DNA from: Eimeria necatrix
Lineage: Eukaryota; Apicomplexa; Conoidasida; Eucoccidiorida; Eimeriidae
Direction of reading: 5' to 3'
Assembly: GCF_000499385.1 (NCBI RefSeq)
Contig: NW_013654421.1
Coordinates: 1-22,224, forward strand
DNA: 22,224 nt
In this document: positions 5,750 through 22,224 of the stretch, in pieces
Layout of the letters: every line of letters starts with the position of its first letter
Position numbering within the stretch: the first letter of the stretch is position 1
Translations under genes and position numbers: made by a program
Notes under the pieces: model-generated
The model's input: the letters and a program-made list of their open reading frames with translations, nothing else
What the model was told of the DNA's origin: nothing
Database searches by the model: none

Positions 5750-5756
5750 TTTGCAG

Positions 5757-5804: not shown

Positions 5805-5894
5805 AAGGCTAGACGGGATCCTGGACATCTGAAGCTCTCGAAAAGTGAAAAAAAACATGCAAAGCCGCGGTTCGCTGAGTACTATCTAATTTGA
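5805..5894 (+). CDS. Possible terminal exon, 29 codons, basic protein end
   Basis: The strongest pyrimidine tract of the window (gtttttatcttttatctttt) ends in AG at 5804. The phase-0 frame that follows encodes a very basic tail, starting KARRDPGHLKLSKSEKK and ending AEYYLI, before TGA at 5892-5894. The phase agrees with the one-codon exons upstream (4707, 5446). The start of the gene would be 4164 or unknown. The lysine and arginine content would suit an RNA- or ribosome-binding tail, but I do not recognise it. The AAG followed by GCTAGA could alternatively be read as a GC-donor module. Confidence 0.3.
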   Translation, partial: KARRDPGHLKLSKSEKKHAKPRFAEYYLI

Positions 5895-5971
5895 TCTTCA
5901 TGCGAGCAGTATTGGGAAGTCGAACAGGTGACCATAGTAAATCACACACGGATAAATGCTGCGATTAGCAG

Positions 5972-5974
5972 ACA
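5972..5974 (+). other. Isolated acceptor-ACA-donor module
   Basis: The acceptor is gcgattagcag and the donor GTGCGTGCT. It falls between the proposed end at 5894 and the proposed start at 6331. It is either chance, or evidence that one of those gene boundaries is wrong. Confidence 0.3.
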
Positions 5975-6018
5975 GTGCGTGCTATTAGTAGAGCATTTAT
6001 GAAGCTGTTTTTCTAGCT

Positions 6019-6330: not shown

Positions 6331-6456
6331 ATGGATGCATATAAACCGTTTTTACATGGGCCAGGAAAAAAGCCAGCAAAAGAAACGCAGGCATACTTGA
6401 AGTCTTCTTTTGCGGGTGTAACCAGATCGAAAGCGAGTCGGCATCTCTCTAGAGAA
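6331..6456 (+). CDS. First exon of the microexon-array gene, 42 codons
   Basis: ATG 6331 is the first start after an in-frame TAG at 6316. The frame reads MDAYKPFLHGPGKKPAKETQ and continues to SRHLSRE, a basic, lysine-rich N-terminus with no clear signal peptide or membrane segment. It ends in GAA directly before the donor GTGTGTCAC at 6457. The boundary is in phase 0, which matches all downstream triplets, and the next module (GAT, 6697) is 240 bases on. Without splicing, the frame would run on to 6636 through a hydrophobic stretch. Alternatively, the pyrimidine-rich tctctctag at 6452 makes AGAA a 4-nt exon, which would break the phase. Confidence 0.4.
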
Positions 6457-6696
6457 GTGTGTCACGGGATTAGCGAAGGAGCGTGGTTGGCCTTCATTGT
6501 GCTTGCTGTTAATATGGGAAAGGGTGCAGGAAGAATGTTGGTGCTTTGGGCTTCTGACTTTGTGAAAAACGCACGACGTTTGTTCGCCGCTAGTTTTCGA
6601 AGTTTTTGGAACCAGTGGGACAATAAGGTGCCTTAGTTCGCAAGTACCCGACTTTCACAAAAAGCATGCATGGAGGCGACACAATTGGGCCTACAG

Positions 6697-6699
6697 GAT
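6697..6699 (+). CDS. Microexon 1 of the array: GAT (Asp)
   Basis: Acceptor gggcctacag, donor GTGCGTAGG. It is the first of three GAT codons in a row. Confidence 0.55.
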
Positions 6700-7013
6700 G
6701 TGCGTAGGATGGGTTCCGCTTGGAAACGGGAAGTGGAGAGACGCATTACTTAGTACTGCTTTCGATGGGGGTGTGATGGCGAGAAGCCAGCCAGTCAAAT
6801 TCGTTATGCTTGCTGTGCAGGGTGGAATGTTATTACGTTTTAGATACAAGTTGCGAAGTAAAGTGGCTGTCGCAACGCTGAGGTGGCCTTAACAAACAGT
6901 GTACGGAAATAATTGAGTTTAGGCCGCAGGAGGCATTCCTGCTGAAAAGATACAGCTCAGTCAAACGCGTCCTAGTGATGGCATGTTTAAACAGTGGGGA
7001 ACTGGGTGTTAAG

Positions 7014-7016
7014 GAT
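7014..7016 (+). CDS. Microexon 2: GAT (Asp)
   Basis: Acceptor ggtgttaag (AAG rather than CAG or TAG), donor GTGCGTTGA with TGA as third intron codon. 317 bases after the previous site. Confidence 0.5.
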
Positions 7017-7333
7017 GTGCGTTGAGATAGCATACATGCAAGCGGGCAGACTGGGAAGGCTTTTGTGTGACTTTAGATGTCACGTCTTCGCCGATCCCAA
7101 AGCAAAGGAGTGCTTGTCCTCTTGTTTTGTTTGTTGCCATTATTAATTGAGTGGAAGACGTCTCGCATCCAACAACGGAAGGAAGGCATTCACAGTGAAC
7201 TCACCAAGAATGCTACCTTGTGAGAGCATCGGGCCAGTATAAAACGGCGACGTATACTTATCGGAGTGTGTTTGAAGAAGTAGACGGCGCATCAAGATCC
7301 TCAAGACGGAAATTTGTTAGAAAGCATGGCGAG

Positions 7334-7336
7334 GAT
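7334..7336 (+). CDS. Microexon 3: GAT (Asp), weak acceptor
   Basis: The acceptor gcatggcgag lacks a pyrimidine tract; the donor is GTATGC. It is kept because the spacing (320 and 422) fits and a gap of 742 would otherwise remain. Confidence 0.3.
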
Positions 7337-7755
7337 GTATGCAGCTGAGATCATCTGGATTCCAAGGAGTGCTTCGGCTATCGAGGGTATATATAAAGAG
7401 ATGAGTACAACTTCAGTTCCCAAGCACTTAACTTAGCAGTGCTGTGGCCTGAATAACAAGTTAATGTGTTTGCGCCTTTGCTAGTGTTTGTGCTTCTCTT
7501 GGCGAACAAACACCTCTAGCATTTCGTGTTGCTTGACGAGGCTGCCAGCGCCAGTGAGCACACATGGAGTTTTCCGAGGTGCAAAGCGTGGGTCTCGAAC
7601 ATCTCTTTCTTTCACGAAAACGCCACTAGGGGCCCGACCATTTGCAATAAAGGTTTCAAAATTCGTTACAGGAGGCTGTACGGCGCAGCAAAACAATGTG
7701 GGCTCCAGGCGCTATATCGAGTCCGTGGAGGTAGATGAAATAGACGGATTTTCAG

Positions 7756-7758
7756 GAA
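7756..7758 (+). CDS. Microexon 4: GAA (Glu)
   Basis: Acceptor gacggattttcag with GAC as a likely branch site, donor GTGCGTTAG (in-frame TAG). A model example of the module. Confidence 0.6.
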
Positions 7759-8112
7759 GTGCGTTAGATGCTTGGATTGCGCATTTCGCTGACTGCATAT
7801 GTAATGGCACGTTGTCTAAATGCTATTTGAGTTAGAGGCAAATGAAGAGAAAGAGAAACGCCTATAGTGGCTTGTTCCCTAGGGTGAGCAACCAATTTAC
7901 CTTTTGGTTCATCCGGAGAAGCTTGACGCAGACGCAACTGCTTCGACCGTCGCTCAAGGAGAATCTGCAAATTCAGTCTGATGAGCCCTACAACATTTGT
8001 GTTCCGACTGCCTTAATAAGTGGATGCACGCACTGTGTTAGTGAAAGAAGCTTACGTGGCATGTACCGCCTTGGTGCAGGCGTCTTGTTTGGAGGAAAAA
8101 CGAATCTTTTAG

Positions 8113-8115
8113 ATA
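8113..8115 (+). CDS. Microexon 5: ATA (Ile)
   Basis: Acceptor cgaatcttttag, donor GTAAGTCGA. An overlapping reading, GATAG-TAA-GTCGAA, would insert a stop but has much poorer signals. Confidence 0.5.
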
Positions 8116-8390
8116 GTAAGTCGAATGAGAAGGCTGCCGGGGATCTGGAGAGCTAAACGTGTGTACACCATTTGCTGGATAGACATTAATGAGGGTAGGG
8201 CACTCTCGATTCCGTTGTCCCCAGCGACCGCGGATGTGGCTCATGCATTTGTCGTTTTAACATGGGACCGCACAGAAAACACACGTGCTGAAGATATTCA
8301 GCTTTCTAAATTCTTCGAGTCAGCTTTTTCCGGCAGCTTGTAGAAAAAATTCTCAGTTCAAAAGGTGATTGTAAGCATGAGGACTTCCAG

Positions 8391-8393
8391 TTG
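8391..8393 (+). CDS. Microexon 6: TTG (Leu)
   Basis: Acceptor gaggacttccag, donor GTGCGTCCA. Confidence 0.55.
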
Positions 8394-8479
8394 GTGCGTC
8401 CAATGAGCGGCCAACCTCATCTGTTGCGTAGAGATGCTGTCGCATGCGTTTGTGCAACTATTACACAAACAGTAGCTGG

Positions 8480-8498
8480 CTGAGCGATCTTCGCTCAG
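8480..8498. repeat. 8-bp inverted repeat, 3-nt loop
   Basis: ctgagcga and tcgctcag flank tct. It lies within the intron after TTG 8391. Confidence 0.55.
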
Positions 8499-8735
8499 AA
8501 CACTGCTTCACTAGGCGTTTTAATCTGGTCAGAAATATAAGATAGCATAGACTCAGGCCTGCAAGCAGCATTTGTTTCATGGGGATGTTCAGGCCAAGTT
8601 CGCGCGTTGATCAAATGCCGTAAGCTCGTCTTTGAGGTCTTGTACCTTACTACATTAGGACTTGCACGACATTGGAAGTTGAGCGCGCACAGTAGTCTAT
8701 TTTGACCACACATGAATCAAGGAGTGGAACAACAG

Positions 8736-8738
8736 GAA
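8736..8738 (+). CDS. Microexon 7: GAA (Glu)
   Basis: Acceptor ggaacaacag (few pyrimidines), donor GTGCGCTGG. Spacing 345. Confidence 0.5.
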
Positions 8739-9083
8739 GTGCGCTGGATAAGCAGACTACTCACAGAATGTCGTCGGGAAGTGCCGCTGCATGTTGTTGA
8801 CCGCTGTTTGGGTGGTATAGTACTGGCGATTTTATGCAGTCGTTACTACAGATCGGAAAAATGAGAACTGTGCATCTGTTATGCTTCACACCGAAGGCAC
8901 CTCAGAAGATTGGTGACCAGAAGCACTTCCCGTCAGTTCATGCGGGAACCATTACGCGGCGCATTATGTGCAGATCATGAAGGACGTACGTTTCACCTGT
9001 CAGCCATGGCTGCAGCAGATTGTACTGAAAAAAACAAAATGTGGTCGGAACTTTCTTTATGCAGCGTTCCCGTGCACTTCCAG

Positions 9084-9086
9084 GTG
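9084..9086 (+). CDS. Microexon 8: GTG (Val)
   Basis: Acceptor cgtgcacttccag, donor GTGCGTCAT. First of the duplicated pair. Confidence 0.55.
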
Positions 9087-9125
9087 GTGCGTCATATAAG
9101 CTGGCTGATGCCCGTCCACTTCCAG

Positions 9126-9128
9126 GTG
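9126..9128 (+). CDS. Microexon 9: GTG (Val), from local duplication
   Basis: Acceptor cgtccacttccag, donor GTGCGCCAT. The intron between it and microexon 8 would be only 39 nt (9087-9125), with ctgat as a possible branch site. One of the two copies may be unused. Confidence 0.45.
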
Positions 9129-9461
9129 GTGCGCCATAAACGTAGGGCGTGTTGGAATCCTTTTCAATCTTACTGAGATCCGGAGAGGGAGAAATTAAAG
9201 TGTTCTTGCTCTGAATGTTGCATAAGTGCATGAAATGCATTTTGTCTCGACCGTAGACGAGGCATAACGTGCAACGTGCATCAAGCGATGAATTGTACGA
9301 TTGTGACTTTCCAGGGTCAGCTCCAGCATAGCCATAGTCTGGGGTGCATGAATTGCATAGGGAGAATTCCGTTTTAGCATATCTTGAAGGGGGGGTTCTT
9401 CATTGAAGAGCAGATGCAAACTCTTTACATCGGCGACGCGTCTCGGGAACTGGCTGTCTAG

Positions 9462-9464
9462 GAT
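9462..9464 (+). CDS. Microexon 10: GAT (Asp)
   Basis: Acceptor ctggctgtctag, donor GTGAGCGCA. Confidence 0.55.
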
Positions 9465-9808
9465 GTGAGCGCATTAAGCTCCTGCAAATTTGATACGTCT
9501 GCAAGGCCGACCATTGAGAAAAAAGCTGGTCTAACAATTTCCAGTTGTGCTCGAAAAACTCATTCTCAGCATTCTCCATGTGCTGTTTGTAGTGCTGTGC
9601 CGGCTGGGAACAAACGCAAGTTGCCTAGATATCTGCCAAGACGCAGGTTTGCGAAATTGAAATGGAATATAACATTTTGAGGATTATTAGACGATTACTT
9701 TGCTCGTCTCGACATTGAGCTTCGACCAGCAAAGAGTCCTGTTGGGAAGGCTCATGGCGGCATGCTGCGGGCAGTCTAGTTGTTATTGAGACGAGATGCT
9801 CTTGCCAG

Positions 9809-9811
9809 AAA
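9809..9811 (+). CDS. Microexon 11: AAA (Lys)
   Basis: Acceptor gctcttgccag, donor GTAAGATGA with TGA as third intron codon. It lies 347 bases after microexon 10 and fills an otherwise long gap. Confidence 0.5.
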
Positions 9812-10034
9812 GTAAGATGAATCAATAAGCTGTCCTAAACCTGCGTAGGGATTTCGGAAACGGAGTGCTTAGCAATCTTGAGGTCGAAATGCAAAACCTA
9901 AACCGTCATATGCGATGCGGGCTTTCAAACTGCACTTTGCAGTTCTTGATGCTGGTAAATGCAGGCTAAGCTCTCACGGTGAAACAGCATGAACACGCTT
10001 GCTTGCAAAAAACGAATTTTTTCAGGCTGTCAAG

Positions 10035-10037
10035 GAA
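10035..10037 (+). CDS. Microexon 12: GAA (Glu), or 12-nt exon from 10026
   Basis: The nearest acceptor is ggctgtcaag; the donor is GTGCGCTTTGA. A far better acceptor, gaattttttcag, ends at 10025, nine bases upstream. Using it would give the in-phase exon GCT GTC AAG GAA (Ala-Val-Lys-Glu). Both keep the frame. Confidence 0.45.
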
Positions 10038-10152
10038 GTGCGCTTTGATCACTTTATATCTTCGTGCGGCATGAGCTGTAGAAGGTGGAAGAAGTTAAGA
10101 ATCTCATGCTGGATCAAAGGCATATGTCCTGCTGGAAAAAGGCATTCTTTAG

Positions 10153-10155
10153 GCA
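10153..10155 (+). CDS. Microexon 13: GCA (Ala)
   Basis: Acceptor ggcattctttag, donor GTACGCTTA. The intron before it is short (about 115 nt). Confidence 0.5.
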
Positions 10156-10467
10156 GTACGCTTATGCTCTAAATGTGAACGGTCAGCGCCTCTAATTTTT
10201 CTTCCGTGTTCTTCTTGCCAAGGAACAGTGGCGAGATTCTATAAATCAATGTCTTGATTCAGCTAATCTCATTAAAAATTCTCAGAGTCACATGAATACG
10301 TTGCATTATTCAGGGGGGTATGATGAGGAAGCTGCGTATAAACAGAAACGCGTCCAATGATTTTGAAGTCTTCGGTTCTAGAGTGAAGAGATATTGGCCC
10401 TTGAAACTGTGCTTCGCGTGCTGAAATTCAGTCATGCCTTTTTACTAGAACAGCAAGCAACATGTAG

Positions 10468-10470
10468 TAC
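10468..10470 (+). CDS. Microexon 14: TAC (Tyr), weak
   Basis: Acceptor gcaacatgtag, donor GTGCTTCGT. The donor lacks G at intron position 5. An alternative donor, GTACGT at 10467, would pair with the acceptor tttttactag further upstream. Confidence 0.25.
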
Positions 10471-10747
10471 GTGCTTCGTCAAGGGCGTTTTCGTCATTGC
10501 CACGGCACGCTCCCCAGACTGTGTGTTTAATAAGAAGCTATATGAGAAATACACATGCCATTGTGTGTCTTTGTGCATTGCATTTGCAACCTACGCACGG
10601 CACGCATGAACAGTTGTGGTTGGAGCATATACGCCATTATTTGCGCATTTGACTTGTGCATGCAACGTGCTATGCAGTTCGCTATTTTGTTCGCGGAAAG
10701 TATCGCGTGCACCTTTGAACTCACTCAGTTTGCTGTTGTGGGGCAGT

Positions 10748-10768
10748 CTAGATCGATCTCCGATCTAG
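10748..10768. repeat. 8-bp inverted repeat, 5-nt loop
   Basis: ctagatcg (10748-10755) and cgatctag (10761-10768) pair around atctc, within the intron before microexon 15. Confidence 0.55.
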
Positions 10769-10892
10769 TGAGCGACGAGTGAGCTCTGGGTGATTCAGTG
10801 CCTGCCGTTAGGCGCCTCTGAAGCACGTTTAGATGCAGCGGCAGCGATGTAGTTTCGAGACCTGCGTGATTTTGATCTGAGAGAACTCTTAG

Positions 10893-10895
10893 GAT
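10893..10895 (+). CDS. Microexon 15: GAT (Asp)
   Basis: Acceptor gagaactcttag, donor GTGCGTTAA (in-frame TAA). Confidence 0.6.
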
Positions 10896-11065
10896 GTGCG
10901 TTAAGCAAAGAAGCTACTTGAGCTGCGACCTGGCCCGTAACCGCTATTGTTCACAATACACTGCTACCGAGGTCATGCAATCTTCTCCTATGATTTCACG
11001 AATGGAAGCACGGAGCACAACGCGTTAAGCTTTTGCCGTACGTGAAGTGGAGACAAGATGTTCAG

Positions 11066-11068
11066 GCA
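11066..11068 (+). CDS. Microexon 16: GCA (Ala)
   Basis: Acceptor caagatgttcag, donor GTGGGTTTGATGAGC. The donor tail is nearly the same as at 18524. Confidence 0.45.
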
Positions 11069-11394
11069 GTGGGTTTGATGAGCATTTCTTTTGCGAATTG
11101 AGCACAAGTTGCCGCCGTGCCTTGATCGTTATTGCTCCTATGGCACCCAGCAGTTGAGACTCGGGCACTTGTGCTGCTCTTGGAAACAATTCACACTGCA
11201 GTTGTTCGGACGGAGTATAACGGCAACACATTCGTGGCTTTTCAACAGTTTTCAATTCAGGCGACCTTGCTGACGGATCGTCAGAGTAAAGCATGACGGA
11301 AGCCGACAGTCGCTGCAATTCCTCTTCCTAAAATCCTAAGATTTCCATGCTATCGCCAAAACATAGGACGAGCATGCGATTAATGAGCTCGCAG

Positions 11395-11397
11395 AAA
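11395..11397 (+). CDS. Microexon 17: AAA (Lys)
   Basis: Acceptor tgagctcgcag, donor GTGCGTTGG. Confidence 0.55.
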
Positions 11398-11617
11398 GTG
11401 CGTTGGATGCGCTTGCTGGGGACTGGGGTGCCTCTGAGTGTCCGTTGGAGTTGCTTCTTTGGAACATTTTAAGCCAACAGATCACATTCTCGGCGCTCCT
11501 ATCCTAGATATTCGTTCGCACGGCATTAAACCACAAAGGACTATGTTAGTAAAAAAGCGATATGAGCGGCTTGTGCTGTCTTGATTGCCTACGCGGTAAA
11601 TGCAAAGCTTTTTTCAG

Positions 11618-11620
11618 AAT
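11618..11620 (+). CDS. Microexon 18: AAT (Asn)
   Basis: Acceptor gcttttttcag, one of the best in the array; donor GTGTGTTTC. Confidence 0.6.
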
Positions 11621-11951
11621 GTGTGTTTCGAAGGCACACCGGCTAGAATGCAAAGAAGAAGCCATACTGCACGTGGCTGACTCTTGCATTCATCATTGTT
11701 ACACATGCATTGTTGGCTTCGCTATCATCAACTAATTGAGCTCAGGTGCCGAGCCTTGTACAGTCTCCCACAGCAAACAGAGTTGCTCTGCATTGGAGTA
11801 CTTGGAAGTGTGACAGAATGATACAGATGATTTCGCCGTATTTGACTTCACGTTTTTGAAATTTGCGGGGCACGAGTTCAAGGAGATGCACGCATAGCCT
11901 TCCATGCTAGGTATGTTGGGCATGGTTGGAGCTAAGATGGTCGCGTTATAG

Positions 11952-11954
11952 GAA
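11952..11954 (+). CDS. Microexon 19: GAA (Glu)
   Basis: Acceptor gtcgcgttatag, donor GTGCGTTAA (in-frame TAA). An AG directly abutting GTATGT at about 11911 is a zero-length neighbour that could compete. Confidence 0.55.
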
Positions 11955-12311
11955 GTGCGTTAAATTAATAATTGTACCAAAAAGTGAGCAAGGAGAGCGC
12001 TTCTTCTCTGCTAACCTCTCCAATATGGAGTGAACGTGCGGGCACGGGACAGCGAGGCTTGAATTGTATGCAGCCAAAGTTTATTATGCACCTGATTTGT
12101 TGACCAAAGGTGCCGGCAGTATATATGACTCGTGTCAACGCACGTAATGTGGCTTTATTGACGCGTCGGGACACGCAGTCCACGTTTTTCTTGGCCAATA
12201 AGATTTCAAGAAGAAAACTGCAAATATTCTGTACAAATGTGATGCACTGTAATGCTCGGCACTCGATCAAAGACTGGACTCTTAATAAAATTGTAATAAT
12301 TTGACTTCCAG

Positions 12312-12314
12312 ATT
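12312..12314 (+). CDS. Microexon 20: ATT (Ile)
   Basis: Acceptor aatttgacttccag, donor GTGCGCTGA (in-frame TGA). Confidence 0.6.
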
Positions 12315-12645
12315 GTGCGCTGAACGTGGACGCAACCCACGTTGGAGGCTAAAGTTGTCATTGTGAAGACATCATGTGTTTATAATGAGCCACCTACCAA
12401 ACGAAGTGACAGCGCCGACTTAAAAGTTTGAATCATAGCTTGCAGTTGCAAGGGGGGTCCTCTGCTGTGCCCCACACGGAATTGGCCTGTAAGCACAACG
12501 TTAACCATTGGAGCCGCATGCGCTGTAACATTACAGTTCGGCTGGTACTACGTGATGATAGCTTGGGTTGGTATTTCAGGGAGAAAGGCTTAATGCTGGT
12601 TGCTTTTATAAGGACATATGCAATGCTAAGGTGGTGAAATTTTAG

Positions 12646-12648
12646 GAA
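12646..12648 (+). CDS. Microexon 21: GAA (Glu)
   Basis: Acceptor gtgaaattttag, donor GTGCGTCGG. A weaker module (ctaag GTG GTGAAA) lies 15 bases upstream. Confidence 0.55.
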
Positions 12649-12953
12649 GTGCGTCGGTTCAGCTAGCTCTCTTGGGTACGGCAAGGGATTGCTGCTCCAT
12701 CGCATTGGACACTGCTGTTGTGGAACACTGGTGTTGTTTCAGTTCTCTTAGTGTAAGCTGCTGTGGTGTTGCAAAAATGGCAAGGGGCGGAGGTTGCCTG
12801 GGCACACACCGTTCGGCGCCTAGAAGATTTGGAAAACGCAGATAAGCTCGTCAGGAAACATGGAGTTGACTAGCGTTTCGCGTTCCTACGCACTGCCAAG
12901 TTGCACTGGCTTCACCGAATTGCTGCACCAAAGGGTGGCGCGACATTTCTCAG

Positions 12954-12956
12954 GAT
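12954..12956 (+). CDS. Microexon 22: GAT (Asp)
   Basis: Acceptor gcgacatttctcag, donor GTGTGTCAA. Confidence 0.6.
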
Positions 12957-13316
12957 GTGTGTCAAAGGGATAACACTGCCGGCAGCGCGGGATGGACAGT
13001 TTTCGCACCTGTGCAAATGCCTCCACTGACAGATAGCGCTGGCTTCAGTATTTGCCTTGTCTTGCGTCGCAACAGAAGCTACGAGCGTGCACTCTGGGCA
13101 GCCTGTGCTGACCATGAAGGCGAGGCCCAAAAGTCACCTTGTTTGACCGTGTGTAGCGTTCGAGAACGTCTGATCCCCTCAGAATTATTGGTTTCTTCTC
13201 AGGCATGTTCATGCTCAACGCTGACCATCACTGCAGCAGGCCTAGAAGGAAGGGGACAGACTATAGCACGACCATCAGTAATTCTTTTAATAGTCTGGAG
13301 GAAGGAGAACCTCTAG

Positions 13317-13319
13317 AGA
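13317..13319 (+). CDS. Microexon 23: AGA (Arg)
   Basis: Acceptor gagaacctctag, donor GTGCGTTGA (in-frame TGA). The exon begins with AG itself, so a one-base exon is formally possible. Confidence 0.5.
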
Positions 13320-13560
13320 GTGCGTTGACTGCCGAGAGAAATGCAGCTGCAGTATGTTCCGTGGGAACAAACATCAGTGATGCCCTGCTCATCTGTTAAA
13401 GAAACCCACTGCAAGCTAACTAACAACGGCGGAGGATGTACTGCTTTGTAGAAGCTTTCGGGTTCAAAATAATCATACGCAAAACGCTGTGTTAGTTTTG
13501 ACCTGATTCATGCTATGTGAACAAATTGTCGCGGGTATGAGCGCCATCTTTTCAAATGCG

Positions 13561-13568
13561 TGCATGCA
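13561..13568. promoter_or_regulatory. TGCATGCA palindrome inside an intron
   Basis: It lies 21 bases upstream of the microexon 24 module. Further intronic copies are at 15346, 15704 and 19243, so the motif is not confined to likely promoters. Confidence 0.2.
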
Positions 13569-13588
13569 TCTAGAAGTTATGTCGGCAG

Positions 13589-13591
13589 GTG
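13589..13591 (+). CDS. Microexon 24: GTG (Val)
   Basis: Acceptor ttatgtcggcag, donor GTGCGTTTGATTA. Joined to the next AAA, the +1 frame would read TGA here, so this junction closes that alternative frame. Confidence 0.5.
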
Positions 13592-13981
13592 GTGCGTTTG
13601 ATTAGGAAAGAGCTGTAGTATGCATCTTGCGCTTCGGCGTTGCTTCGGTGTGACAAACGTAGCAAACGTGGTCAGTCCTAACTCATGTACTCGTATATGC
13701 GGGCCGTGGCTATATATTGGTTCTGTACTTTTATTTCGAGAGCGGGCAACAGCAGATACAACTTGGCTGTTTGCTGCCTCTTCTACGTCCAGCTTGACTG
13801 GGCGTAGACGAGACAGCATGCGACCTTTTAGGAACTTTCAAACCCAGCACAGGGCCTGATTTATTCCGCTGGTAATGCTCCTCAAGCGAGTGTTGACTTG
13901 CTTCTGCAGCGGAAAACGGGAGCGAAGGCAGCCCTGGAGTTTCCGTGGATCTGCGCATTTTTGAGGCGAGGGGAATCCCAG

Positions 13982-13984
13982 AAA
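13982..13984 (+). CDS. Microexon 25: AAA (Lys)
   Basis: Acceptor ggggaatcccag, donor GTGCGCTTT. Confidence 0.55.
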
Positions 13985-14328
13985 GTGCGCTTTTTGGCGA
14001 AGTCAATGGAAGCTTGATTTAGAGTGCCTGTGGCCTCGAATGTTGCTGCTGTCTCACTGAATTGCTCATTTTGAGTCACCTGCGACAGTGCTAGGAATAT
14101 TGGATTTAATGTTCTCCTATTAGCACAGCACAGACGCGATTAGTGCACCGCATCAGCCAGCAACGCTGCCGAGTGCAGTACGGTGAAAAATAGGCTCATC
14201 GGCTGAGCATTCACAAGAATATTTGCAGTTACCGATGTCCGCTGCTCCATGTCTTGCAGAGAAAGGTGGAAGGCCATCTGCCATGCACAGGTTCTAATCA
14301 TATCTGTTAATGAAATAATGATGCTTAG

Positions 14329-14331
14329 CGA
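14329..14331 (+). CDS. Microexon 26: CGA (Arg)
   Basis: Acceptor taatgatgcttag, donor GTACGTTTG. Found by searching the expected spacing; 347 bases after microexon 25. Confidence 0.5.
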
Positions 14332-14603
14332 GTACGTTTGCCAATCATACTGGTAGCACGCACATTCTGCAACCCGAAGCTTATGTTCGCCTCCCTTGGG
14401 CATCAGCTCTTGTGACTTATGATTGAGCTGCCAACTGTTAGGGGCGGTAATGCAAGAAGTGCTTGCTTGGCGTCCCGAAGTTTGTTCGCGCAGCACTTAG
14501 CAAGCATTGGTTTTATGCAAGTGATCCAAAGGGGTGGTTCCAATCGTGCTAAACTACTCGTAACTCACGGAGCGTGACCATGTGGCCGAACAAGGGCTTC
14601 CAG

Positions 14604-14606
14604 CGA
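14604..14606 (+). CDS. Microexon 27: CGA (Arg)
   Basis: Acceptor agggcttccag, donor GTAGGTCGA. An overlapping TAG triplet (CGAG-TAG-GTCGAA) has weaker signals on both sides. Confidence 0.5.
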
Positions 14607-14899
14607 GTAGGTCGAATAAGCGCTCTGCGAACGATGCAGACAAATGCGGCACTTAATTATGGCCTGATGCACTCACTGTAAGGAAAATCCGTTAAGCGTG
14701 GGTATTTTTGACAAACTGTGTTCTGCTGTGTGTGCGTGTGGCGCGGCTTTGTGTCATTGTTGGGGTGGTCCGCGCAACACAAATAGTGCGAAGAAACGAC
14801 ATGATTTGACGTGTATTTAGTTTCTCTCAGCAATGACACGCTCAGGATGAAGGTTGAAACACGAGAGCACACGCTTTGTCAAGACGACGGAATTTTCAG

Positions 14900-14902
14900 T
14901 CG
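14900..14902 (+). CDS. Microexon 28: TCG (Ser)
   Basis: Acceptor gacggaattttcag, donor GTACGTTAG (in-frame TAG). Confidence 0.6.
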
Positions 14903-15180
14903 GTACGTTAGAGCTGGATGCTGCATAAAATAAAATGTTGACACGCTTCATCATTTATGGCTATTTATTACTCGATAACGCCGTCTCACTTGGTTCTGAC
15001 ACAAGCTACATAATGCATTGAATTTACAGGCTGCCTTAATGAAAGGGCGGTGATAATGCTGAGTGGTGTCAAATGCAATTTTTGGTAGAAGCGGCATGCT
15101 GCTTGCACACAGCTACAACTGACGGGACTGCAATATGGGTTTCAAATGATCGATGCACATTAACTGCTGCGAATACCTAG

Positions 15181-15183
15181 GGA
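15181..15183 (+). CDS. Microexon 29 (doubtful): GGA (Gly), AT donor
   Basis: The acceptor gcgaatacctag is good and the spacing fits (281 and 226), but the donor reads ATGCGC instead of GTGCGC. It may be a dead site, skipped without breaking the frame, or a non-canonical donor. Confidence 0.25.
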
Positions 15184-15406
15184 ATGCGCAACGCCTTGGT
15201 CGGATCCATATGGTTTGGCCATAGGAAGACGTTTTGGCCCTGCAGAAGCGTTAGGAAAATTCTTACTAAGCGCATAAAATACAATGGATTCGCTACAGAA
15301 AAGGTTTCAGGGAGGAACATTAAAGTAACGCAGTGCGCCTCCAGATGCATGCATGACGCTGACACCAATCACATTAGAAATAAACTTCAGCCTTGATTGC
15401 TTCCAG

Positions 15407-15409
15407 GAT
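15407..15409 (+). CDS. Microexon 30: GAT (Asp)
   Basis: Acceptor ttgattgcttccag, donor GTGCGTTGAATTA (in-frame TGA). Confidence 0.6.
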
Positions 15410-15736
15410 GTGCGTTGAATTAATTGAATGAACACATCGCTTGCCTTAGCACTGCAGTTGAGCGCGATTCAATTGTGCTTCTTTGGGACGCCATTTAGTA
15501 GAGGATGCCCCCCAGGGGGTGCCTAGTGCATCGCTGCTTTCTCGTGTTAGTTAACGTAACAGTGCTTGAAAGTAACGAGTCTTAGTGTACAAATTCAGTG
15601 ACACAGACACAGCCGAAAGGCTGCTACATCAACTTCCTCAAAGTAAATGTCATACGCTCCACAATGTAATTAAAAACGCCAGCCCCCTGATATATTGCTC
15701 CATTGCATGCAAAGCAGGCATGGGAGATTTTTTTAG

Positions 15737-15739
15737 AGA
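15737..15739 (+). CDS. Microexon 31: AGA (Arg)
   Basis: Acceptor gagatttttttag, donor GTGAGCTGA (in-frame TGA). Confidence 0.55.
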
Positions 15740-16106
15740 GTGAGCTGAACAAACGGCCTATTAATGACGCTATTTCGGTGTGTGACTGCGTTTGCGGTGC
15801 TTCAAATCACCCCTGTAAATCACTGCTGATAAACTAGACAGCCAAGAACGAAACAGCTGAAAAAGTGCTGTGGACTTATAAATGAACGAAAAAAAGATAT
15901 GCCGTACGCAGAATGGCCAGTTCTTTAAGTCTAAAGCTTACGGCTTGAAACTTTGACTGCCTGCTAGCAAATCATGCACTCAGATCGACTCAACCATCAC
16001 AAACGCGCTGTTCAGGCTTTTAACCCTGCCGCGGGGCTTGCAATACAAAGTTGTGATGCTGTGTTTGCTGAGGATGCTAATCGAACTGAGGTTGTTTTGT
16101 TTGCAG

Positions 16107-16109
16107 AAA
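16107..16109 (+). CDS. Microexon 32: AAA (Lys)
   Basis: Acceptor ttgttttgtttgcag, a full pyrimidine-rich tract; donor GTGCGTTGT. Confidence 0.6.
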
Positions 16110-16547
16110 GTGCGTTGTTGCGGAGCATATCTTGCTGGGCTGAGTAGCGAAGAAAAAAGCAGGCAACAAACATTGTAGAGTTTTACATGGTATATGCGCC
16201 AAACTGATTGAAACACGCAACTGAAAAGCTGCTTCCTGATACGCCCTGAGAATCCCCTGCACTTCATTGGCTTCAACTGTGGAATAATAATGGAGAAATC
16301 ACGCAGTTGCTACACCGAAGGCAATCCACTCGTCTGCCTTATTGCCACACGCACCAGTCATAGGAGCGGAGACTCTTCAAGGCATGGGATGTGGCAACAC
16401 GGGATAGTAGTGTAATAGCCCGAGCACCGACGAAATTCTGGTCAACTGTGCTGGCATCCTGAATGTGACATGATGCCGCAAAGGCAACAAGCTTGACCTC
16501 GCCAGATGTACTATCATGTATGTTCTTTTAGAGAATACGACTTTCAG

Positions 16548-16550
16548 GAA
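16548..16550 (+). CDS. Microexon 33: GAA (Glu)
   Basis: Acceptor atacgactttcag, donor GTGTGTTGA (in-frame TGA). The intron before it is 432 nt. Confidence 0.6.
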
Positions 16551-16817
16551 GTGTGTTGATGCGCTCCGGTCAATTCATTTTTGACTCGTCAATAGACCAC
16601 GTTGTCTTTTAACTGCAGTACACGCCTATTTTCCAGCAGAGGCCCAGCGAGCCTGCGTGCCATGTACACAGCGAAGTTGTCACGAATCCAATACGTGGAC
16701 TAAAACACAGTAGGCGGCTATAATGTATTCCGACGATGCTGTAGTAATGGGCAAATCGGTCTGAGCGGAAACACTTTCTGATGAGGGTGTGCATGCTGCT
16801 GAAGCGAGAGACCTCAG

Positions 16818-16820
16818 CAA
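16818..16820 (+). CDS. Microexon 34: CAA (Gln)
   Basis: Acceptor gagagacctcag, donor GTGAGTTGAATAA (in-frame TGA). Confidence 0.55.
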
Positions 16821-17165
16821 GTGAGTTGAATAAATGCTCTCTAGCCCATCTGTTGGGCATGCCGCTTTGTGCCGCTATATCGCCTGCTTGCAAAAAAGGA
16901 ATGAAAATGTTAAACAATATTCGTATCCATATGGCGTCTCCGTAACGATCATACACTTGCTCTCCTAAACGGAAGAATGGGCAGCGCGCGCGACATCCCT
17001 AGAAGCAGACACACGGCTTCGTAGAGACGCGGGCACTCATTAATTTTAAAAGTATTACATAACAGACATGAAGGCCCACCATCGCAGCTTGACTTCAATG
17101 GGCCAGCTACGAGTTCCTGGTGTTCCGTTGAGGGGTGTATGGAGGTAAGATGAGACGGCTACCAG

Positions 17166-17168
17166 TTT
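17166..17168 (+). CDS. Microexon 35: TTT (Phe)
   Basis: Acceptor gacggctaccag, donor GTATGTTTGACA. Found at the expected spacing (348 and 330). Confidence 0.5.
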
Positions 17169-17495
17169 GTATGTTTGACAAACGCGCCCGCATGGGTATG
17201 AGCTGAAACGCCAATATATGGTTTTGGACGTGCTGCAGCAAAGCAATTTTTCGACGGTCGGAAAGGCTTGCTTTTGTTGTCTATGCTAACATGTAAGAGG
17301 TCGTTTATCATTTCTCTGTTGGCGTGGCACAGAACTTTAGGATTTTCTCACAATTCGTTGTTGTCTTCAGATTATCTTGGGTAAACTACAATCTCGGTGT
17401 TGAGTGTGCGCACAATAGTTTGCTTAGTGGACAGGAAACGCGGAAACATCTGTGTAGTTCATTGCCTTCACAGCTCGATTCCACTGGCTGGCCAG

Positions 17496-17498
17496 AAA
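17496..17498 (+). CDS. Microexon 36: AAA (Lys)
   Basis: Acceptor actggctggccag, donor GTGTGTTGA (in-frame TGA). Confidence 0.55.
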
Positions 17499-17851
17499 GT
17501 GTGTTGAAAAGTGTGAAGTATAACTGCCACTGCTTTTCTTTGAACGCTGAGTTCGAAACTTGGTGATGATGCGCTTAGGCAGTGTCAACTCAAATATTAA
17601 AGCTGTGTTTCAAAGTAACGACATGAAGTGCCTGCTGTGCTGAAAAGAGAGGAAGCCATGGAAGTAGCATGGCCGGATTTACTTTGTGGGGTTTTTTCAG
17701 TACGGGACTCTGCACTCCCGCTTTAAAGGACTCAAATGTGTTTGGTGATGTGTTGGTCAGATTAAATGCATCCTGAAGACTGTAGCTTTAGTTTCAGAGC
17801 AGCGTTTTTTATAGAAACTGTGCATAGTCTTTGATATACATGAATTCCCAG

Positions 17852-17854
17852 ACG
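17852..17854 (+). CDS. Microexon 37: ACG (Thr)
   Basis: Acceptor catgaattcccag, donor GTGCGGTGA. The last base of the donor hexamer departs from the consensus. Confidence 0.45.
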
Positions 17855-18115
17855 GTGCGGTGACTCACTATCCTGCTGGGAATGTGCAGATTACTGCACA
17901 ACGATCTGACGAAAGATATTTGCAGAGTTTGCTAGCCTGAGCGGGTGGAATGCTCTTCTGTGGAAAGATTCATGCGCAAACCCAGCATCAGGGAAGTTGT
18001 TGGGCAATTGCCCTTGCAAATTTCAGCTTTTGCGAAGGCTTGTGCAGAGGAGTAAAAATGGAAACGATGCAGTTTACACGGCAGGACCGTGCATATTTTG
18101 AACACGAGATCACAG

Positions 18116-18118
18116 ATT
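18116..18118 (+). CDS. Microexon 38: ATT (Ile)
   Basis: Acceptor cgagatcacag, donor GTGGGTTGG. Confidence 0.4.
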
Positions 18119-18345
18119 GTGGGTTGGACAGATAAAATATGCTTGATTCGAACGAAGGACCCTGTTGCACGTCTTTGAACAGCACCTCAATCGGAACGTA
18201 AACATCAAACATATACAATGTTGAGAGAGTTTCTTGCGACGCGGACTGCGGAGAGTACTGTGTACGTGCTCCATGACAAGGCAGGCCTCACTATCCATTA
18301 CGGGCCTTGAAGCGTCAAGACAGCATCGAGCTGCGCTTGCAACAG

Positions 18346-18348
18346 GAT
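18346..18348 (+). CDS. Microexon 39 (weak): GAT (Asp)
   Basis: Acceptor gcgcttgcaacag, donor GTACACGCA, which lacks G at position 5. Leaving it out keeps the frame. Confidence 0.25.
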
Positions 18349-18520
18349 GTACACGCAGCTCTGTTGGGACTTCAAGGCCAATTTTGGACGCAAGGGCGAT
18401 TCCTGTGAAATGTGCTGCGGGCTAGGCGGATGCTTTTGGCCTTCTATGCGGGCTTTAAAAAACAGTGGAGTGATGTGCTGCATCGAGCCAACACATTTAT
18501 ATAAAAAAGACGCTTCCTAG

Positions 18521-18523
18521 AAA
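18521..18523 (+). CDS. Microexon 40: AAA (Lys)
   Basis: Acceptor agacgcttcctag, donor GTGTGTTTGATGAGC. Confidence 0.6.
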
Positions 18524-18863
18524 GTGTGTTTGATGAGCATGCTCGTGAGCACCAGTGCTCAGGCGTTCGCATGTTTTTATGCGTTATGGATGTGAGGTAC
18601 CGGTGAAAATAGTGGACAGCTTGCAGGGAAAAGCTGCGGCTTGCGTACTCTAAGGCTGTTAATGTTTATTCTCCAGATATCATGTTGGCGGATCGACATA
18701 TCTAAAAAATAGCTGAATGCCCATGCAACATACGTCCAACTATATGCGTGTGCATGCGTTGCCGTGAAGTATTCTGTAGAGCCACATGAAATCAGTTTGT
18801 GTGCATATTTTGTTGGGCGTCATGCTGTGCGAAAGCACCAAATTGGAACTGGAGGCCTTCCAG

Positions 18864-18866
18864 AAA
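18864..18866 (+). CDS. Microexon 41: AAA (Lys)
   Basis: Acceptor ggaggccttccag, donor GTCAGTTGG. This is the only donor in the array with C at position 3. Confidence 0.45.
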
Positions 18867-19210
18867 GTCAGTTGGTTGAGCATACCGTCTACGATTGGAG
18901 ACGTCTGATTATTGTTGAGCGCCTCTAGGCATTGCGTTCAAAACGATTAAGAGAAGCACCAGAATTACTGGGGCAGAAGTGAGCAGCGAAGTGTTTTCGT
19001 GTTGGCATCAAATGAGATCAGCGCTCCCAGGAATTCTTGATTTTCGCATTCCTGCTGCATGCCAAGGTCTAACGGCCGGTAACATGCTCTTCAAGTAGAC
19101 AAAAAAGGTTAGATGCTACTGCAGGCTTTTCAAGAGATAAACTGGAAAGCAATATACGTCGCCTCATCACCCTGTTCCACGTTCCCTCATGGTGACTTGA
19201 CGGTTCACAG

Positions 19211-19213
19211 GAA
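19211..19213 (+). CDS. Microexon 42: GAA (Glu)
   Basis: Acceptor ttgacggttcacag, donor GTGAGCTGA (in-frame TGA). Confidence 0.6.
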
Positions 19214-19518
19214 GTGAGCTGATTGAATGGAAATTCTGGGCTTGCATGCAAGCAAATACTATTTTGATTGGAAACCAATAGCCCTACCGAGGGAATGCAC
19301 TCTGCTTTGATTCGTGGGAAGGCGCGGTATGCGTGTAACGCCAGTAGTAGTAGCGGCCTGGAAACGCATTATTTCTGGCTGTTCCCAAAAGAGCCTGATA
19401 CAACTGTCAAGACAATTTATAGCCATGGGAATCCTTTTAAACAAACATTATATGAAAGAGGCACAGATATAGAGCATGATATAGGGGGGCGCCTCAGGAT
19501 AAGACAACAACGTTCCAG

Positions 19519-19521
19519 GTG
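19519..19521 (+). CDS. Microexon 43: GTG (Val)
   Basis: Acceptor caacaacgttccag, donor GTGCGCTTA. Confidence 0.6.
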
Positions 19522-19764
19522 GTGCGCTTAATCAAAGAAGAGTTTTCTGGGATGTTGAGCCTTGGACTGGGCAGCTTTGACTTAGTCGGCTCCTTCAGAG
19601 ACTGCGAACGTATTTTTCTCGTCTCCGTGTTCTTTCACAAGGTTCCCTGGCTAATATGACAAAGGCGCGCGATTCCTAGCATTTCAGGGTCATTCAGATA
19701 TAATATGAACATGAAAGATATGTACGCAAGCCGTTTATGGGACAAAGACAACTTCACATTTTAG

Positions 19765-19767
19765 GAA
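19765..19767 (+). CDS. Microexon 44: GAA (Glu)
   Basis: Acceptor cttcacattttag, donor GTATGTTAG (in-frame TAG). Confidence 0.6.
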
Positions 19768-20151
19768 GTATGTTAGATGAGGATATTGCCAGTGACTCGG
19801 ACTGGGAGTACTAGTGTGCTTGCTCGCATGTACTTTATGTGAGAGGCCAGTAGCCATACGTAGTCAATTTGAGATGCCAACGGTGCACCTACTTCCCTGT
19901 GATTCAAACTTTTACAAGGCCATTTTAGACAAAATATGGCAGATGTAACAAATGAGCTGGATTTGCAACTGAGTTGCATCGAAGTTCCATAACTTGTCAG
20001 GATGTCCAAACCCAGCGTAGGCTTCAACGAGCCGCAACGAAGGGCTGAAATTTCAGGGCAGCATGGTGCGTGGGAAAGAAATAAAGGCCAAGTATCATCT
20101 AATCCACCGAGAGTCGACTTAGTCATGCCGCTTTGCCGACTGGTCTACCAG

Positions 20152-20154
20152 GCG
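20152..20154 (+). CDS. Microexon 45: GCG (Ala)
   Basis: Acceptor gactggtctaccag, donor GTGAGCTGA (in-frame TGA). Confidence 0.6.
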
Positions 20155-20335
20155 GTGAGCTGAATATTCACGCTGTCTGGGCTAATGCGCAGATGTGCTA
20201 TGCGACGTGCGAATAGTGCGCCGAGGAGCTATTGAGTTAACGACACCAGAACTCGCATCATTCTTCCAAGACTTATACAAGTTTTGTGCGCTCGGCAGAT
20301 TGGCAGCACTCATGAAGCAAAGGCAAATAACGCAG

Positions 20336-20338
20336 GTG
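20336..20338 (+). CDS. Microexon 46: GTG (Val), weak acceptor
   Basis: Acceptor caaataacgcag, donor GTATGCTTG. It fills a 514-base gap at spacings of 184 and 330. Confidence 0.4.
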
Positions 20339-20665
20339 GTATGCTTGAACGGCATGCTGATGAGAAGGCGGACTCACTGCTCACCTGCGTCATTTGAGCT
20401 GCTGCATTTGTTGCATCCAAGTCTCACAGTAAGTCGTGGAGGCGTCACACAGGCCGAGAAGATACGTTTTAAGTCAGCGCTGCTCCAAAAGCGCCGCTTT
20501 TGCAAACTCACCGTCCTTAATGTCCTGGCTGAATCAGTTTGCTCACGTGCATGCTCTCCACACTACGTGTGCACTGTCAAAAACGGTGCTGTACCTAATT
20601 ACATAAAATAGGCGATATATGCTTCTGTGAAGGCGTACTTGAACCTGCGATGAGGCTCGCGTTAG

Positions 20666-20668
20666 CAA
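20666..20668 (+). CDS. Microexon 47: CAA (Gln)
   Basis: Acceptor ggctcgcgttag, donor GTGCGTCGG. Confidence 0.5.
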
Positions 20669-20812
20669 GTGCGTCGGGTTGCTGACACATTCATTTTCCA
20701 AAGACAGATGCTTCAGAAGTGCAAGAATGGCAGACAAGGCAATTGAGATTCAAATGCTTTTGTTCTTGTCTAGACAACAGTTTTGTTTGTAGACCGAGTT
20801 TTGGACAAGATT

Positions 20813-20931
20813 AGCACGTACAAGGTATTGACTTGCATTTGAGGAGCTTGGCTTTAGCGGGGCAAATTGGCCAGCACGTACAAGGTATTGACTTGTGTTT
20901 GAGGAGCTTGGCTTTAGCGGGGCAAATTGGC
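20813..20931 (+). repeat. 60-bp tandem duplication in an intron
   Basis: Copies at 20813-20871 and 20873-20931 differ at two positions. Both begin AG CAC GTACAA, a weak module that would encode His. The duplicated unit starts exactly at the AG. Confidence 0.85.
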
Positions 20932-21078
20932 ATGTTGCGAGCTAAGGTTTGACTTAAAAGAATTTCTGAAAATTTCTGACGACAACGAACCTCAACATTT
21001 CGTGTGATGAGAAAATCTTTACTGACTTGTGTAGTATTTTAGAAGTTCCTGAAGTTATCCAGATGACCTGCCTCCTAG

Positions 21079-21081
21079 AAA
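21079..21081 (+). CDS. Microexon 48: AAA (Lys)
   Basis: Acceptor gacctgcctcctag, donor GTGCGTTCC. Confidence 0.6.
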
Positions 21082-21418
21082 GTGCGTTCCTGGTGCAGAC
21101 TGTCGAGCATAATGAGTGGCATCGCACAGGTTTGCCATTGGATGATATTAAAGTAGATTACGCCGCCTGAAATCACCTCAGCATTCTGCCGTTGCACATG
21201 AATTTCGCATTAGTTGCGTTTGCGAGGCTGCCAGGATCTGGAGTTCTTGAATTGGAGATGCCACAAGCACTTCTAAAGCGGTCTTGGAAAACAGCATATG
21301 CCATGCATGGTTGCTCTTTGGTCATGGTGAAAACGTTGCGTCTGACTGTTTCAATGTGTGAGGTAGGGTAAAACTGTTCAGTCTCGGTGCTTCAGGGTTA
21401 AGCCGAATGAGCTCCCAG

Positions 21419-21421
21419 AAG
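21419..21421 (+). CDS. Microexon 49: AAG (Lys)
   Basis: Acceptor atgagctcccag, donor GTGCGTTGA (in-frame TGA). It is the only exon in the array that itself ends in AG, which puts a second AG directly against the donor. Confidence 0.55.
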
Positions 21422-21673
21422 GTGCGTTGAACGCGTTTGCCTTCCCAGCGGCGTTACGTACAAAGAAATTTGCTTTTAGACGGCACCAGAAGCGGCGGCA
21501 TCTGCAACACAAGGTACTATCGTGTATGCATGATTTGCTGAATTACTGCACGCAATGTGCTTGAACAGAAGTGCACTGCACGCAACTGGTGCCTCAGCAG
21601 GTTAATCATGCAGAAAGTAGAGGCACGGCGCCACATTGGGGCACTGATGCCATGCAGCTAGGTGGTTTCTCAG

Positions 21674-21676
21674 CGA
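21674..21676 (+). CDS. Microexon 50: CGA (Arg)
   Basis: Acceptor ggtggtttctcag, donor GTAAGCTGA (in-frame TGA). Confidence 0.6.
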
Positions 21677-22021
21677 GTAAGCTGAAAAATGGTCGGGATA
21701 GCAATTGCGCGTATTGTCTCCTGCCTATGGACATCATTTTTGTGGTGCGCTGACAGAAAACCTGAGCAGAAGGCACTTGCTACTGCTGAACTTTCCTTCA
21801 CGAAGTTTATTTCTGATGGCGAAGGATAATTAATTGGCCTAGATGCATCGCTAGTTGCTTTCTAGGGATTTCCAGGCTCGCCTTTGTCTTTGGCAGACCC
21901 TTTCCCGAGTCATTGACAGTGTTTCACGTTCTGTGCAGCAGTGCATGCCTCAAAAGCAGTTTTAAATAGTCAAACATTTCATATCCCTATTGTGGGTAAT
22001 TTCGAATGGGATGGTTTACAG

Positions 22022-22024
22022 AGT
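22022..22024 (+). CDS. Microexon 51: AGT (Ser)
   Basis: Acceptor gggatggtttacag, donor GTGCGTCGG. It is the last site seen; the next acceptor would lie beyond the window. Confidence 0.55.
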
Positions 22025-22224
22025 GTGCGTCGGCGGTGAAGTACACACACTGGAATTGCGAGGAGGGAGCGCGGAGCGCATGCGTTTGAGTGCACACCAT
22101 ACAATACACATCGTCAAGGTTTAGCTTCATGTAAAAGATACCAAGCGAAGGTTTCTATCGTGAAGTGCCTAACGTGTGCAGTAACTTTACGACGTTTGGG
22201 CGCTATGCGTGCTGGATCAAAGGG

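Follow-up and report, generated by a model that had tools for sequence, protein, structure and literature searches.

The micro-exon genes (MEGs) of Schistosoma mansoni contain exons of 36 bp or less, as stated in the available excerpts of PMC8293314, and in plants exons of a single nucleotide have been confirmed by reverse transcription PCR and RNA sequencing (PMC8831610, in part). In this study, we analysed a stretch of 22,224 nucleotides from Eimeria necatrix (contig NW_013654421.1, here the window; it is the entire contig C779), for which an original prediction, made from the letters alone, had proposed a gene built from consecutive three-base exons. Our analysis suggests, with a probability of about 0.92, that the window likely represents the central part of an Eimeria gene and that the messenger RNA (mRNA) of this gene would be built one codon at a time through ordinary GT-AG splicing. 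For a sister gene on a second contig, C485, codon-wise assembly is right at the protein level, and for the window it is, as judged from its sequence, most likely.

Throughout, a strict module is YAG-NNN-GTRNGY, and module coordinates give the first base of YAG. On C485 there are 166 strict modules on the minus strand, beginning at 25.7 kb and reaching the contig end, and one on the opposite strand. A chain was built here from splice letters and spacing only, with triplets unscored and no protein reference; it comprises 212 units, spaced at a median of 115 bases. When joined, the 212 triplets contain no stop in frame 0, whereas frames 1 and 2 are interrupted 9 and 16 times, and 5.2 frame-0 stops are expected when the triplet columns are shuffled independently (P=0.002). 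A search of 5.8 billion proteins with the C-terminal 199 of these 212 residues returned three matches, all from Eimeria: the E. necatrix NPmz19 antigen (E=1e-112, 89% identity over 99%), a second NPmz19 record (84% identity) and the E. tenella protein H9BA71 (70%). Residues 1–95 of NPmz19 correspond to one ordinary exon, C485:26280-25996, which is followed by the donor GTAAGT. Two weak chain units, at gene-strand coordinates 44431 and 45973, were left out of the final model, which combines this ordinary exon with 210 micro-exons, 207 of them 3 nt long, to give 211 exons in total. The gene spans 26.2 kb and is 97.5% intron beyond exon 1; its micro-exons hold 216 of the 311 codons, so that the larger share of the coding sequence lies in short exons that keep the frame. 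The model aligns over 311 residues with the first NPmz19 record (291 identical) and has 280 residues identical to the second, in both cases without an internal gap, while 239 of 310 residues are identical in the E. tenella protein. The predicted assembly of the mRNA codon by codon is thus borne out at the protein level for C485, with its gap-free model of 211 exons, and we extend it to the window because the anatomy is the same and because the splice letters are conserved in a second copy, C969.

A comparison of C485 with the two deposited E. necatrix variants revealed 19 and 31 differences in the 216 array-coded residues versus 1 and 0 in the 95 residues of exon 1, and the array-coded part is therefore the variable part of NPmz19. 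The agreement of all 95 exon 1 residues with a deposited E. necatrix record also points to this species as the likely source of the genome. Alternative 3-nt exons within C485 were considered as the source of the two variants and set aside, as an informal look at a few varying positions showed little spacing room. At E ≤ 1, NPmz19 matches 17 places in its own genome, in most cases through the first exon and in none past residue 120, and the C485 array is therefore the only source seen for the rest of the protein in an assembly that is possibly incomplete. When the three NPmz19 proteins were turned into a profile and searched against the 5.8 billion (7996 candidates scored), only these same three Eimeria proteins were retrieved, the C485 peptide gave chance-level matches only to Pfam and to PDB sequences (best E 0.31 and 0.96, respectively), and an AlphaFold model of P0001 made from three sequences was poor, with a mean predicted local distance difference test (pLDDT) score of 39.4. 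No published gene structure of NPmz19 was found in the part of the literature on NPmz19 and E. necatrix that was covered, in which no paper mentions NPmz19 by name.

In the window, a pattern scan identified 53 strict modules on the plus strand, 44 of them within 6331–22224; the controls gave 4 on the minus strand and 6 in the reversed window, and 200 first-order Markov shuffles contained on average 3.3 (window) and 2.2 (6331–22224) modules, with a maximum of 9 each. When the spacer between acceptor and donor was varied from 0 to 30 bases on the plus strand, only a spacer of three was enriched, with 53 matches and at most 9 for every other length, in agreement with the claim of exactly three variable bases. 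A weight matrix blind to the triplet found 54 sites of at least 10 bits on the plus strand, 5 on the minus strand and 1.85 per shuffle, although it was trained on the very sites that it then scored; the module density in shuffled sequence and on the minus strand is thus far from equal to that on the plus strand. The intervals between strict modules in 6331–22224 have a median of 340 bases and 34 of 43 lie within 240–420, compared with a mean of 8.8 under random placement, and the recurrence of the module about every 340 bases on one strand for some 16 kb was therefore confirmed. Four near-strict modules (7011, 9806, 17849 and 18861) bring the units in this interval to 48. Of the proposed 51 units, about 45 of them strict where some four would arise by chance, the strict count was upheld and the total came close; however, modules 9081/9123 and 18793/18861 are only 42 and 68 bases apart, respectively, and some matches therefore cannot be exons. 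The proposed start of the array at 6331 did not hold, as nine strict modules lie already at 651 to 5969.

The aligned window sites show CAG more often than TAG, a short T-rich tract, A or G at +3, a free +4 that is mostly C, G at +5 and T or C at +6, a profile that is in part dictated by the strict search pattern and that agrees with the claim of splice-site-like variation. In the C485 model, all 210 micro-exons lie between AG and GT, 208 donors read GTRNG, 198 acceptors read YAG and a T-rich stretch is present upstream. The introns would be about 320–340 bases long in the window and are about 113 bases long in C485. They contain in-frame stops in 64 of 66 cases (window and C969) and 169 of 202 cases (C485), and their lengths are spread evenly modulo 3; read-through is therefore practically excluded.

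C969 repeats the last 4.5 kb of the window at 93–95% identity, and the array continues there to about 11–13 kb. Between these copies none of 84 constrained splice letters has changed, compared with 216 of 4216 intron letters (5.1%; P=0.02). The contigs C713 and C1133 (L026–L030) form a second paralogous array pair, 81–87% alike over approximately 13.7 kb. When the 13 modules scoring at least 11 were taken out of the 35 in the C1133 chain, none of 78 splice letters differed from C713, compared with 1971 of 13087 intron letters (15.1%; P=7e-6). The splice letters are kept while the introns drift, and selection therefore acts on the splice letters.

Several observations weigh against codon-wise assembly or narrow what can be claimed for it. 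When modules were picked in C713 instead (17 modules), 4 of 102 splice letters had changed (P=7e-4), and triplet letters have changed at about the intron rate in both pairs (2 of 42 for the window and C969; 6 of 39 and 7 of 51 for C1133 and C713). Constraint is thus seen for the splice letters only, and a fast change of residues is possible. One of the 166 strict matches of C485, which begins four bases downstream of its neighbour, has the triplet TGA and was skipped by the chain, and the weak tail of the C969 chain includes one TGA unit. Three C485 exons of 12, 9 and 6 nt, which are lengthened chain units, were placed using the NPmz19 protein as guide, the alignment with the E. tenella protein has two internal gaps, and the derivation of the NPmz19 records from complementary DNA (cDNA) is inferred from their names alone. 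A different, long-exon protein encoded on C582 aligns locally with NPmz19 residues 54–179 at 28% identity; it is no copy of NPmz19. Among the 210 micro-exons of C485, 12 acceptors deviate from YAG and 34 donors from GTRNGY, and in a k-mer search upstream of the acceptors no single k-mer was prominent as a branch-point motif. For the window, a set of 46 triplets from 6694 onward, with weak and crowded units left out, has 0, 1 and 10 stops in frames 0, 1 and 2, but triplet-column shuffles of this set expect just 1.4 frame-0 stops (P of none 0.13), and the stop-free frame is therefore weak evidence. Finally, no relative was found for a window peptide of 51 codons joined to 25 from C969, in a search that relatives longer than about 133 residues would escape; the 51 window residues did not match NPmz19 or H9BA71 (E 0.52 and 93), and a 55-residue window peptide matched no Pfam family.

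Some of these points would also fit the idea that the window array is a relic of a working codon-per-exon gene that is now unexpressed or mis-spliced. The lack of a homologue found for its product, the irregular left part, where about 6 kb are partly duplicated and several intervals lie far above the usual 340 bases, and the drift of triplets at the pace of introns speak in favour of this, whereas the conservation of all 84 splice letters against a 5.1% change in introns argues against it, as does the finding that none of the 53 strict triplets of the window is a stop, even though few stops would be expected. We consider a relic unlikely. In another view, the units are recursive-splicing ratchet points within one giant intron, and the triplets are lost from the mRNA. 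An acceptor directly ahead of a donor is indeed the anatomy of a ratchet point; however, ratchet points have zero bases between AG and GT, three bases remain here, the zero-base form occurs once in the window as opposed to 53 times for the three-base form, and the C485 triplets appear in the protein, which makes this view very improbable. If the module were a protein-binding site or a chromatin element placed at regular intervals, the very regular spacing on one strand would be accounted for, but this reading is refuted for C485, where the triplets spell a known protein without an internal gap, and it is hardly credible for the window, given that the variation resembles that of splice sites and that the spacing differs by array, with medians of 115 bases (C485) and about 330–340 bases (window). 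Elimination of the intervening DNA from the genome, or RNA editing, in place of splicing has nothing in its favour except that the splicing of over 200 such small exons would be odd, and it can be set aside as scarcely plausible, since every C485 micro-exon is flanked by AG and GT and the donors and acceptors are of ordinary form.

According to the codon-wise model, each window unit would be a phase-0 one-codon exon flanked by introns of about 320–340 bases. An acceptor and the next donor are only three bases apart, and, judging from known sizes, one spliceosome could therefore not hold both; splicing would thus likely proceed stepwise, in that an intron is removed, its codon is added to the growing upstream exon and the lengthened exon then serves the next donor. 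The predicted units of the window are listed below.

Predicted one-codon exons and related features of the window (exons predicted from sequence; strict, fits YAG-NNN-GTRNGY; C969, second array copy)
Feature	Position	Strand	Remarks
Predicted 3-nt exon GAT	6697..6699	+	strict
Predicted 3-nt exon GAT, acceptor AAG	7014..7016	+	near-strict
Predicted 3-nt exon GAA	7756..7758	+	strict
Predicted 3-nt exon ATA	8113..8115	+	strict
Predicted 3-nt exon TTG	8391..8393	+	strict
Predicted 3-nt exon GAA	8736..8738	+	strict
Predicted 3-nt exon GTG	9084..9086	+	strict
Second GTG module, 42 bases after first; local duplication, probably no separate exon	9126..9128	+	strict
Predicted 3-nt exon GAT	9462..9464	+	strict
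Predicted 3-nt exon AAA, donor GTAAGA	9809..9811	+	near-strict
Predicted 3-nt exon GCA	10153..10155	+	strict
Predicted 3-nt exon ACT	10518..10520	+	strict
Predicted 3-nt exon GAT	10893..10895	+	strict
Predicted 3-nt exon GCA	11066..11068	+	strict
Predicted 3-nt exon AAA	11395..11397	+	strict
Predicted 3-nt exon AAT	11618..11620	+	strict
Predicted 3-nt exon GAA	11952..11954	+	strict
Predicted 3-nt exon ATT	12312..12314	+	strict
Predicted 3-nt exon GAA	12646..12648	+	strict
Predicted 3-nt exon GAT	12954..12956	+	strict
Predicted 3-nt exon AGA	13317..13319	+	strict
Predicted 3-nt exon GTG	13589..13591	+	strict
Predicted 3-nt exon AAA	13982..13984	+	strict
Predicted 3-nt exon CGA	14329..14331	+	strict
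Predicted 3-nt exon CGA	14604..14606	+	strict
Predicted 3-nt exon TCG	14900..14902	+	strict
Predicted 3-nt exon GAT	15407..15409	+	strict; top score, 25 bits
Predicted 3-nt exon AGA	15737..15739	+	strict
Predicted 3-nt exon AAA	16107..16109	+	strict
Predicted 3-nt exon GAA	16548..16550	+	strict
Predicted 3-nt exon CAA	16818..16820	+	strict
Predicted 3-nt exon TTT	17166..17168	+	strict
Predicted 3-nt exon AAA	17496..17498	+	strict
Predicted 3-nt exon ACG, donor GTGCGG	17852..17854	+	near-strict; triplet identical in C969
Predicted 3-nt exon ATT	18116..18118	+	strict; triplet identical in C969
Predicted 3-nt exon AAA	18521..18523	+	strict; triplet identical in C969
Doubtful module TTT, 68 bases ahead of next	18796..18798	+	strict letters, weak score 8.1
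Predicted 3-nt exon AAA, donor GTCAGT	18864..18866	+	near-strict; triplet identical in C969
Predicted 3-nt exon GAA	19211..19213	+	strict; triplet identical in C969
Predicted 3-nt exon GTG	19519..19521	+	strict; triplet identical in C969
Predicted 3-nt exon GAA	19765..19767	+	strict; triplet identical in C969
Predicted 3-nt exon GCG; C969 has GAG	20152..20154	+	strict
Predicted 3-nt exon GTG	20336..20338	+	strict; triplet identical in C969
Predicted 3-nt exon CAA	20666..20668	+	strict; triplet identical in C969
Predicted 3-nt exon AAA; C969 has AGA	21079..21081	+	strict
Predicted 3-nt exon AAG	21419..21421	+	strict; triplet identical in C969
Predicted 3-nt exon CGA	21674..21676	+	strict; triplet identical in C969
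Predicted 3-nt exon AGT	22022..22024	+	strict; triplet identical in C969
Sparser left array part	651..5980	+	strict modules 651, 1800, 2195, 2512, 2740, 3718, 4704, 5443, 5969
Tandem duplication, period 395	1516..2317	+	copies a strict (1800/2195) and a near-strict (1518/1913) module
Tandem duplication, period 130	360..613	+	copies one near-strict GAA module, acceptor GAG

The joined window peptide is rich in charged residues and would probably form a charged part of a protein that starts from an ordinary exon off the contig. A Pfam search with the first joined peptide and 8 of the 17 open reading frames (ORFs) of at least 100 amino acids gave one match, far under the cut-off (E 0.11); by our own estimate, 17 such ORFs are likely no more than chance would produce in the six frames of 22 kb. 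Neither Rfam at gathering scores nor a transfer RNA scan yielded a match, and viral_contigs, a set possibly without the parasite's own genome, did not contain an exact 30-mer taken from the window. On the minus strand at 8290 there is a lone strong module, CAG CAC GTGTGT (15.1 bits), which is probably due to chance; a 60-bp tandem duplication (96%) lies within an array intron at 20813–20931; and TGCATGC, which we take to be a promoter motif of related parasites, is common in the window as judged by eye.

The genome that was searched comprises 44.0 Mb in 1148 contigs. With a stringent variant of the module, eight places were found. Six of these fall in contigs where modules clearly accumulate on one strand (C485, C969, C713, C1133 and, with two places, the window); the accumulation is weaker in C363 and at the end of C494, with 10 and 6 modules in 10 kb, respectively. 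Peptides from the C713, C1133, C363 and C494 chains are not claimed, as these contain many weak modules and, in C363 and C494, a stop. The narrower pattern YCAG-NNN-GTGCGTT has 204 matches in the genome versus 25 in the reversed control; with four or six Ns there are 24 and 29 matches, with 31 in each reversed control. As this pattern recovers 14 of 296 strict modules in four array contigs, some thousands of 3-nt exons are likely by rough extrapolation. Among three further contigs, sampled on account of their pattern matches, C12 and C425 show a one-strand excess of the three-base spacer (7 each) and C275 has two modules in 2 kb. Four 10-kb control stretches around tubulin matches (L033–L036) contained a total of three matches with the three-base spacer, counted over the two strands, with no excess over other spacers.

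The eight best loci matching NPmz19 (L037–L044) are on C485, C200, C798, C482, C411, C896, C925 and C582. Judged by eye, seven of them begin with a hydrophobic N-terminal stretch, followed by a membrane helix and then a cysteine close to the phase-0 GT donor; the locus on C582 instead continues as one long proline-rich exon. Behind the membrane helix, RRL is found in six of the eight loci, RGL in C200 and RKL in C582. The RRL motif may, by analogy, be reminiscent of what we take to be export signals in related parasites. Within 3–4 kb at five of these loci, strict 3-nt units number six in C200, six in C798 (where other spacers occur too), one in C482, one in C896 and none in C411; besides its one strict unit, C482 has a run of 9-nt exon candidates.

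Some arrays give hints as to how they arose. Apart from a few recent duplicates, the median similarity of neighbouring intron interiors is that of distant pairs. Recent copies of an intron with its codon are seen at 1516–2317 and 360–613 of the window, in the C485 tail and at 59236–59471 (gene-strand coordinates), and at 4326–5862 of C969. C200 (L045, 559–1870) contains tandem units of 146/289 bp with 3-nt exon candidates that provide five codons, four of them different, and these units also hold 4- and 14-nt exon candidates. In C482 (L047, 692–1623), 158-bp tandem units in 5.9 copies carry 9-nt exon candidates on the minus strand, with 13-nt ones alongside, and this looks like a young array that is still growing. 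Arrays therefore likely grow through tandem duplication of an intron together with one codon, followed by divergence, and this may apply to the origin of whole arrays; it would explain why intron length is uniform within an array and differs between arrays, why the phase is constant and why a single strand is used. Introners are mobile introns that share sequence, many of them of similar length per gene. The arrays resemble them in the many introns of similar length per gene; however, the intron interiors here are mostly unlike, and insertion of introners as the origin was ruled out for this reason. Tentatively, and at somewhat less than even odds, we propose that there are thousands of single-codon exons and that the arrays might be a codon-by-codon engine that makes and varies surface or exported antigens. 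In such an engine, a unit of intron and codon could be duplicated, lost or mutated with the frame intact, and the spliceosome would have to pass more than 200 exons in strict order.

No earlier account of codon-per-exon arrays in Eimeria was found in a literature search that had most subscription papers and all preprints outside its range, and the literature that was found on 3-nt or one-codon exons concerns other organisms only. The exon passages available from the E. tenella genome report, the E. falciformis genome paper, a review of apicomplexan splicing and the E. necatrix Iso-Seq paper are without such arrays. When full-length E. tenella cDNAs were mapped to chromosome 1, aligned exons in multi-exon alignments had to exceed 10 bp, according to the mapping rules excerpted from PMC3315734. 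With such exon-size minima, genes of this kind are likely missing from Eimeria annotations. Approximately 200 consecutive one-codon exons go well past known micro-exons and challenge the minimum size at which an exon can be recognized as a unit. The arrays also make strict stepwise splicing directly testable, and they suggest a route by which protein length may arise codon by codon.

As to known systems, C485 encodes the protein represented by NPmz19 and H9BA71, while the window peptide has no match to either. The bicycle genes of aphids, a fast-evolving secreted family, also have many micro-exons of the same phase; however, their exons exceed one codon and the organism is unrelated. Plants and animals have isolated microexons of 1 and 3 nt, which indicate that equally small exons can be spliced, but these occur singly or as adjacent pairs among ordinary exons, and no array is described in the parts of PMC8831610 that were available. 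MEGs, as far as the excerpts of PMC8293314 describe them, are like the arrays reported here in that they consist chiefly of short frame-keeping exons and encode host-exposed proteins, but they belong to another phylum, and in Eimeria nearly all exons of the array are one codon long, with 210 of these micro-exons following one another in C485.

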